DNA from: Spirosoma aureum
Lineage (GTDB): Bacteria; Bacteroidota; Bacteroidia; Cytophagales; Spirosomataceae
Assembly: GCF_011604685.1 (NCBI RefSeq)
Contig: NZ_CP050063.1
Coordinates: 3,432,501-3,496,500 of the forward strand
DNA length: 64,000 bases
Direction of reading: 5' to 3'
The position numbers and the translations under genes were made by a program. The notes below the pieces were generated by a model. It had not been told where the DNA came from. It saw nothing but the letters and a program-made list of their open reading frames with translations, and searched no databases. Shown piece after piece: positions 1,341-2,461 of the stretch. Numbering within the stretch: position 1 is the first letter of the stretch; every line of letters begins with the position of its first letter.

Positions 1341-2201
1341 TTAATAGATCATTTTCTCAATTGGAATCACCAGAATCCCTTCGGCACCCGCGGCCCGAAT
1401 GGCTTCGATATTTTCCCAGAATTCATTTTCATTCAGCACCGAATGAACCGAACTCCAGCCTTCCGTTGCCAGAGGTGTCACGGTTGGGCTTTTCATACCC
1501 GGCAATAAAGACGTAATCTGGTCGAGGGCGTGGTTGGGTGCATTCAGCACAATATATTTGTTATTCTTGGCAGCCTGTACCGACTTAATCCGGAACAGAA
1601 GTTTATCGACCAACGCCTGTTTGTCGGCATCCAATTCGGAACGGGAAATAAGAATGGCTTCTGATCGAAAAATGGTTTCGACTTCCTTAAGGCCGTTGCT
1701 CATGAGCGTACTGCCTGAACTAACAATATCACAAACCGCTTCGGCCAGGCCAATACTCGGCGCGATCTCGACCGAACCGCTAATTTCATGAATTTCCGCC
1801 CGAACCCCCTGACCCGCCAGGTAATTGCCGAGCAGGTTAGGGTATGAGGTTGCAATGTTTTTACCGTCCAGACTCTGAATGCCCGTCCAATCGCTACCAC
1901 GCGGAATCGCGATCGACAGCCGACACTTTGAAAAGCCCAGTTTATGAACGGTCTGCACCGGGCGGCCCGTTTCAACGGCTACGTTTTCGCCCACGATGCC
2001 GAGGTCAGCAACACCATCTTCGACATAGCCGGGAATGTCATCGTCGCGAAGGAATAGAAATTCTGCGGGAAAGTTCGATGAAACGGATTTGAGTTTGCCA
2101 GTACCGTAGTCGAAACGGATACCGCATTCTTTAAAAAGCTGGTACGAATCTTCGCTCAGCCGACCGGATTTTTGTAAGGCAATGCGTAATACAGAAGACA
2201 T
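1341..2201 (-). CDS. hisG: ATP phosphoribosyltransferase, long form
   Basis: First and committed step of histidine synthesis: joins ATP and PRPP to give phosphoribosyl-ATP. At 286 residues it is the long HisG form with its own regulatory domain, so no HisZ partner is needed. The N-terminus MSSVLRIALQKSGRLSEDS and the central ISGSVEIAPSIGLAEAVCDIVSSGSTL segment region are typical of the catalytic domains. The C-terminal ACT-like domain, from about residue 212, carries PGMKSPTVTPL, characteristic of feedback-inhibited HisG. It heads the operon with hisD downstream. The roughly 250-base leader upstream carries a histidine-rich peptide and hairpins, which suggests attenuation control by charged tRNA-His. 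Confidence 0.97.
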   Translation of the reverse strand: MSSVLRIALQKSGRLSEDSYQLFKECGIRFDYGTGKLKSVSSNFPAEFLFLRDDDIPGYVEDGVADLGIVGENVAVETGRPVQTVHKLGFSKCRLSIAIPRGSDWTGIQSLDGKNIATSYPNLLGNYLAGQGVRAEIHEISGSVEIAPSIGLAEAVCDIVSSGSTLMSNGLKEVETIFRSEAILISRSELDADKQALVDKLLFRIKSVQAAKNNKYIVLNAPNHALDQITSLLPGMKSPTVTPLATEGWSSVHSVLNENEFWENIEAIRAAGAEGILVIPIEKMIY

Positions 2202-2281: not shown

Positions 2282-2308
2282 AGCAACCGACGGCTTTAGT
2301 GTCGGGCT
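2282..2308 (-). terminator. Candidate his attenuator terminator hairpin
   Basis: On the minus strand AGC-CCGAC (2308-2301) can pair with GTCGG-TT-GCT (2291-2282), an 8-bp stem with a two-base bulge and a 9-base loop, followed by GGTTTTAAT. It sits 80 bases upstream of hisG and about 80 bases after the leader-peptide stop. AGCCG inside the hairpin (complement of 2291-2295) could instead pair with CGGCT at the end of the leader peptide (complement of 2391-2395), the kind of alternative pairing an attenuator needs. Fold inferred by eye. Confidence 0.5.
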
Positions 2309-2325
2309 ATGTTTGAATTAAGGGG

Positions 2326-2333
2326 CAAAAGTA
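2326..2333 (-). promoter_or_regulatory. Second TAnnTTTG -7 element upstream of hisG
   Basis: The minus strand reads TACTTTTG, an exact match to the Bacteroidota -7 consensus TAnnTTTG. A transcript from here would start near 2319 and bypass the leader peptide. No good -33 TTTG is seen at the right spacing, so it may be fortuitous. Confidence 0.35.
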
Positions 2334-2385
2334 AGGAAAACCGTGGACCAACAGGCGATAGGTCGCAGAATTGACCAGCAGCGGC

Positions 2386-2448
2386 TTAGCAGCCGTGATG
2401 ATGGCGACGATGTCGAAATGAAGAAAGGAGTGCCAGTTGGGAAATCAT
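2386..2448 (-). CDS. hisL: Histidine operon leader peptide
   Basis: A 20-codon reading frame ending FRHRRHHHGC then TAA, with four histidines in six residues (13, 16, 17, 18). It lies about 185 bases upstream of hisG, on the same strand, just after a TAnnTTTG promoter element. His-rich leader peptides are the sensing element of his operon attenuators: ribosomes stall at the His codons when tRNA-His is uncharged and let the antiterminator form. The His run sits next to the CGGCT segment that can form alternative hairpins with downstream AGCCG copies. The AUG lies almost at the predicted transcript start, so the peptide may be read from a nearly leaderless mRNA. The symbol is by analogy; homology was not tested. 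Confidence 0.72.
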   Translation of the reverse strand: MISQLALLSSFRHRRHHHGC

Positions 2449-2453
2449 GGACA

Positions 2454-2461
2454 CAAAGGTA
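2454..2461 (-). promoter_or_regulatory. TAnnTTTG -7 promoter element for the his leader
   Basis: The minus strand reads TACCTTTG, an exact consensus match placed directly before the leader peptide ATG at 2448. Transcription would begin about 2447-2450. No clear -33 element was found. Confidence 0.55.

Follow-up and report, generated by a model that had tools for sequence, protein, structure and literature searches.

A conserved histidine-rich leader peptide, predicted to be leaderless, and a second promoter box upstream of hisG in Spirosoma

A described counterpart of the region upstream of hisG in Spirosoma aureum is the proteobacterial His_leader (RF00514): both have a short frame with a His-codon run ahead of hisG, which opens the operon here, and presumably the logic of ribosome stalling. 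The Spirosoma region differs from it in having no conserved terminator and in a frame that begins at the predicted 5' end of the transcript. No match to RF00514 was found at the gathering score in the window, the whole stretch of 64,000 nt that was analysed, and none at E ≤ 1 in locus L081; locus L212, from family f26, gave a sub-threshold match of 33.9 bits against a gathering score of 49 (E 0.075). Another relevant RNA, the Bacteroid-trp motif, is linked to trp genes, as its name implies. This motif (RF01692) resembles our locus as a candidate cis-regulatory RNA of Bacteroidetes (PMC2864571, in part) but serves another pathway, and the window contains no match to it at the gathering score.

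Three further systems, each taken from the available part of the cited paper, come close in other respects. For Flavobacterium psychrophilum, strong clues are reported that amino-acid operons are attenuated through leader peptides, and hisG is preceded by a structured 5' element that other Flavobacteriaceae genera share and that has no Rfam hits (PMC9723704). That element belongs to the same phylum and precedes the same gene, although the text available to us mentions no leaderless start, missing terminator or second promoter. The polycysteine short ORFs of mycobacteria (Canestrari et al. 2020, via PMC9031893) are likewise leaderless, rich in one amino acid and responsive to its supply, but concern a different amino acid in a different phylum. 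Similarly, trpL of Sinorhizobium meliloti encodes an attenuator leader peptide on an mRNA that begins with ATG (PMC7298713), but it concerns tryptophan in the Alphaproteobacteria, and its leader RNA has a further role in trans once attenuation has released it. The structured hisG element of Flavobacteriaceae and leaderless amino-acid-sensing leaders in mycobacteria and Sinorhizobium are thus already in print, to the extent of the text seen. The leaderless Spirosoma form, the missing terminator and the second promoter were not found in the Bacteroidota his-leader literature covered, which included few subscription papers.

The S. aureum region contains the following features.

1341..2201, minus strand: hisG, an open frame of 286 aa, named from the earlier note on this DNA and from homologues across the genus
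2282..2308, minus strand: hairpin first taken for a terminator, unsupported as such
2326..2333, minus strand: P2, a second TAnnTTTG box, TACTTTTG, 52 nt past the leader stop and conserved in Spirosoma
2340..2382, minus strand: species-specific terminator-like hairpin, followed by TTTCC
2382..2395, minus strand: stop-codon hairpin CGGCT-GCTA-AGCCG (CGGCTGCTAAGCCG)
2386..2448, minus strand: leader peptide frame, MISQLALLSSFRHRRHHHGC, with its stop codon
2405..2415, minus strand: possible small hairpin in the His and Arg codons, CGACATCGTCG
2449, minus strand: predicted start of transcription from P1, 1 nt ahead of the ATG
2454..2461, minus strand: P1, a TAnnTTTG promoter box, TACCTTTG

The leader frame has 20 codons, with His at positions 13, 16, 17 and 18, and its translation confirms what the earlier note had read from the sequence; the distance to hisG, given there as about 185 bases, is 184 nt from the leader stop codon to the hisG ATG. 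We compared 36 Spirosoma regions, in which one species is counted twice (L012 and L104); hisG was detected in 35/36 Spirosoma genomes. Over 25 distinct 20-codon Spirosoma frames, pN/pS was 0.45 in frame and 1.27 and 1.07 in the two shifted frames. All 25 have CGA CAT as codons 12-13, His16 and His17 are each kept in 21/25, and His18 is found in only 7/25; the commonest form of the peptide in the genus is MISQRATHSPFRHRRHHRGC. The conservation in relatives that the earlier note had asked for holds for the His codons, and does not extend to its hairpin at 2282-2308, for which no consensus fold was obtained. Judged by this pattern of substitution, the frame is real and coding-constrained in Spirosoma. 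The peptide it encodes is probably a sensor of histidine supply. Degenerate leaders occur in L011, L014, L017, L101 and L113 (the frames of L014, L017 and L113 have 15 residues), and L115 has none.

Frames of this kind are found well beyond the genus. We surveyed regions upstream of hisG for frames of 10-50 codons with at least three His within seven residues, ending no more than 330 nt before the hisG match. The named hisG loci were the best 80 listed, relatives came from lists of the best matches or from drawn samples, with a manual choice among these for the regions beyond Spirosoma. Such frames were present in 118/218 upstream regions, compared with 77/2180 dinucleotide shuffles, with 5/218 on the reverse strand, and with 2/46 regions upstream of trpE, ilvB, thrA and ask. 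The rule identified leaders in all named Cyclobacteriaceae (10/10), in f19 (14/14), f12 (6/6) and Runella (8/8), and in 46/46 regions of f23, f24, f25, f26, f27, f34, f41 and f52 pooled; from kinship and sequence style we infer that f26 is flavobacterial. No leader passing the rule was found in Larkinella (0/6), Emticicia (0/7), Dyadobacter-like genomes (0/23), f15 (0/6), f18 (0/5), f5 (0/4) or f20 (0/3), and the rule missed 9/36 Spirosoma regions. Since His18 is kept in so few frames, the rule fails in these nine regions and several species have degenerate leaders, histidine control in Spirosoma may be weak or fading. That the S. aureum frame arose by chance and has no function is extremely improbable: the shuffled regions that pass the rule show that such frames can arise at random, but chance would not account for the conservation, the coding constraint or the fixed spacing between promoter box and ATG described below. 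The earlier note's identification of a leader peptide is supported by the conserved frame, its His and Arg codons, the promoter spacing, and the occurrence of His-rich frames before hisG in many relatives.

Among 46 Spirosoma loci, we found no conserved leaderless leader peptides before trpE, ilvB, thrA or ask. One Spirosoma locus, L274, has a Thr/Ile-rich frame before thrA, MSKTTLINIVIINLR, 9 nt from a TATCTTTG box; it is the only such frame in 11 thrA loci and may be due to chance. Separately, L018, from a record titled Flavobacterium sp. SUN052, encodes a hisG 88% identical to that of the window and has a short promoter arrangement resembling that of Rudanella, so this record is perhaps mislabelled.

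The exact TAnnTTTG element noted just ahead of the frame is the P1 box TACCTTTG at 2461-2454, and its first base lies 13 nt ahead of the leader ATG. With a search that permitted spacings of 11 to 14 nt, box and ATG were found together in 32/36 Spirosoma regions, at a spacing of 12 nt in 23 and 13 nt in 9; the degenerate frames of L014, L017 and L113 are counted among the 32. As for the other four, the contig of L006 ends within the leader, the box of L101 ends in A, the leader of L115 is absent, and L010 has the box TACCTTCG, with a spacing of 12 nt by eye. In F. psychrophilum the TAnnTTTG box occupies positions -12 to -5 (PMC9723704, in part), and transcription from P1 is therefore predicted to begin at about 2449, one base upstream of the ATG. 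Leaderless mRNAs make up 5.5% among 890 CDSs in F. psychrophilum (PMC9723704), and about 3.7% of 5' UTRs in Bacteroides thetaiotaomicron are shorter than 10 nt (PMC7366714), both from the parts of these papers available to us, so the phylum does have starts of this sort, if infrequently. The Spirosoma leader is probably translated without a 5' UTR, given a predicted start at or one base from the ATG in 32/36 regions, and the earlier suggestion of a leaderless leader peptide gains support from the conserved frame and promoter spacing, with the start itself predicted. The spacing varies by clade, from 15-17 nt in named Cyclobacteriaceae (10/10) to 32 nt, to a GTG, in Runella (8/8), and 15-43 nt in those f26 regions with an identified box (10/18); the leaderless form is therefore not universal.

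A second box, P2, lies between the leader and hisG. P2-type boxes occur 79-137 nt before hisG in 35/36 Spirosoma regions vs 26/720 shuffles; the exception, L087, reads TACTTTTA. The TA and TTTG of the box are constant, and its two free positions are CT in 21 regions, TT in 10, TG in 2 and GG and GT in one each. With variation confined to the free positions of TAnnTTTG, P2 is more plausibly a promoter than an RNA element, and we regard the latter as unlikely. Elsewhere a box between leader and hisG is found in Runella (4/8), f12 (2/6), named Cyclobacteriaceae (1/10), f19 (1/14) and f26 (0/18). An extended P2-like motif had no matches genome-wide, a result that is little informative since the fixed letters of the motif do not fit the S. 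aureum P2.

Two small hairpins could form in the leader itself. The first (2382-2395) has most of the leader's stop codon in its loop and a 3-bp core that is able to pair in 19/24 Spirosoma leaders; in L007 one pair is changed on both sides, from G-C to A-U. A consensus fold of the leader end from these 24 sequences gave only the second, a CGAC/GTCG hairpin in the His and Arg codons (2405-2415); because the stop-codon hairpin is not predicted by this fold, we regard its support as moderate. The segments CGGCU and AGCCG, put forward earlier as partners in alternative pairing, do exist, but they are the adjacent arms of this one local hairpin, and a long-range switch is unsupported. Folds of 32 Spirosoma regions and consensus folds yielded no conserved alternative (antiterminator) pairing, and complementarity between leader and hisG reached p ≤ 0.02 in 0/32 regions. 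By eye, Cyclobacteriaceae-type leaders end in HHxHHSS codons, with the stop codon in the loop of a hairpin (approximately TTCCTCyTrAGGAGGAA) that has no T-run and whose 3' arm is Shine-Dalgarno-like. This hairpin was seen in L057, L063, L066-L068, L071, L079 and L080, in shorter form in L072 and L074, and also in L165 and L175 (f12).

Terminators were sought with a hairpin-plus-T-tract score between leader stop and hisG, compared with 20 shuffles (smallest possible p, 0.048), in a hand-picked, incompletely deduplicated set of 109 regions from loci with a leader; the rows with leaders from f9, f17, f22, f39, f41 and f47, and some of those from f12, f27 and f34, fall outside this set. At p ≤ 0.05 all 18 f26 regions passed, with a median score of -18.1, as did 19/24 hand-picked regions from other families, 3/32 from Spirosoma, 0/10 from Runella and 3/25 with Cyclobacteriaceae-type leaders. 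The His-rich frames of f26, with their strong predicted terminators, look like ordinary attenuators. One Runella locus, L042, has the look of a classical four-segment attenuator, with a His-codon stem closed by GCGTAG and then TACGCA...TGCGTA followed by TCTTTTT, and its terminator score misses the 0.05 threshold (p 0.10). In Spirosoma, hairpins directly before a T-run upstream of P2 gave a median p of 0.45, with two at p ≤ 0.1, in 30 of 32 regions (L013 and L106 have no T-run there and were omitted). By these scores, an intrinsic terminator is not conserved in Spirosoma.

S. aureum is one of the three Spirosoma regions that passed. Its best-scoring hairpin (2382-2340; -13.6 kcal/mol), with p at the 20-shuffle floor, is followed by TTTCCTT and, among the 32 Spirosoma regions, is also found in L082 only. 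The fold of 2341-2385 alone has a z of -0.66, and that of 2341-2398, which includes the stop-codon hairpin, -2.32. The terminator proposed in the earlier note is a different hairpin, at 2282-2308, and the corresponding version of the mechanism, in which this hairpin terminates transcription and CGGCU/AGCCG provides the alternative pairing, is very unlikely. The hairpin is present (-7.6 kcal/mol), and a TTTT lies 7 bases past its 5-bp core stem and 2 bases past a weaker outer arm; however, 17/200 shuffles fold as well or better (z -1.59), and a consensus terminator scan found no minus-strand site here and scored the hairpin only as a plus-strand reading. No consensus fold was obtained between P2 and hisG in 22 aligned Spirosoma regions, 10 of the 32 having been dropped beforehand as divergent or short, and the conserved P2 box stands between hairpin and leader. 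As the hairpin is downstream of P2, a transcript from P2 would contain it without the leader peptide. Between about 2204 and 2260 (minus strand), and at the same place in many Spirosoma, we also noted an inverted repeat, TGTATGA...TCATACA, together with short CATACATC repeats before hisG; the consensus fold of the 22 regions predicted no structure there.

We hypothesize, with moderate confidence and from comparative sequence evidence, that the leaderless His leader is a histidine-responsive attenuator of the his operon that acts on the P1 transcript, and that P2 feeds hisG independently. Judging from the spacing, transcription from P1 would begin no more than about one base from the ATG and translation would be leaderless. 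When charged tRNA-His is short, ribosomes would stall late in the frame, on RHRRHHH; when histidine is ample, they would move on to the stop codon, within the small hairpin at 2382-2395. As expected for a system of this kind, stalling would let P1 transcription continue into hisG, and fast passage of the ribosome would end it in the linker before P2. The ending step in S. aureum could be the hairpin at 2382-2340 with its short T-tract, or Rho, and would not be an intrinsic terminator conserved in the genus. Transcripts from P2 would be beyond the control of the leader peptide, which would therefore tune only the P1 share.

A version of this scheme that relies entirely on Rho is doubtful but worth considering. 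Quick completion of the frame would expose a C-rich leader and linker to Rho, a His-stalled ribosome would mask the site, and no hairpin switch would be needed. The lack of a conserved intrinsic terminator in Spirosoma is in keeping with it; Rho is encoded in the S. aureum genome, and with 30 C and 16 G in its first 90 nt the leader stands at the 97th percentile when 90-nt windows from the two strands of the analysed stretch are ranked. The C excess is, however, partly due to the codons of the peptide itself, and some windows in his genes exceed it (maximum 0.18 vs 0.16). It is unlikely, in our judgement, that the leader is instead the remnant of a full ancestral attenuator, which would have lost its terminator and gained P2 in Spirosoma and would persist with little regulatory effect. 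Such decay would fit the strong terminators of f26 and other families and their lack in Spirosoma, the near-universal P2, which is kept in the five regions with degenerate leaders and in the one with none, and the absence of rule-passing leaders from Larkinella, Emticicia and Dyadobacter-like genomes. On the other hand, the in-frame pN/pS and the retained distance between promoter and ATG speak for selection acting on the leader today.

A separate observation concerns f26, f25 and f52. There, a segment between the attenuator terminator and hisG, about 26-45 nt from the gene, is a perfect complement, 9-14 nt long, of the terminator's 5' arm and loop (e.g. GTTTGAGTACA in L212). This complementarity reached p ≤ 0.015 in 13/23 regions of these three families (f26: L199, L204, L208, L211, L212, L214, L215, L217, L220 and L221; f25: L213 and L218; f52: L245) vs 0/15 regions of other families. 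The copy covaries with the arm, with 10.7 nt of complementarity within a species and 7.5 nt across species (0/20000 permutations) in a nine-species subset chosen after seeing the data, and 8.4 and 6.2 across all 21 compared regions. Translation of hisG could be locked by such pairing, either in cis or, by way of the released leader RNA, in trans.

Taken more broadly, we suggest tentatively that Spirosoma and the near-leaderless Cyclobacteriaceae may share a His-sensing leader without a recognisable intrinsic terminator, in which the stall would be read out by Rho access or by the stop-codon hairpin, and that in Spirosoma a promoter outside this control may have been placed between sensor and operon. 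Histidine leader peptides occur before hisG in many families of the phylum sample, as classical hairpin attenuators in some and, in others, as a leaderless form poor in terminators. One gene and one signal appear to be read out differently, which would make the coupling of translation and transcription testable in bacteria that mostly lack Shine-Dalgarno sequences.
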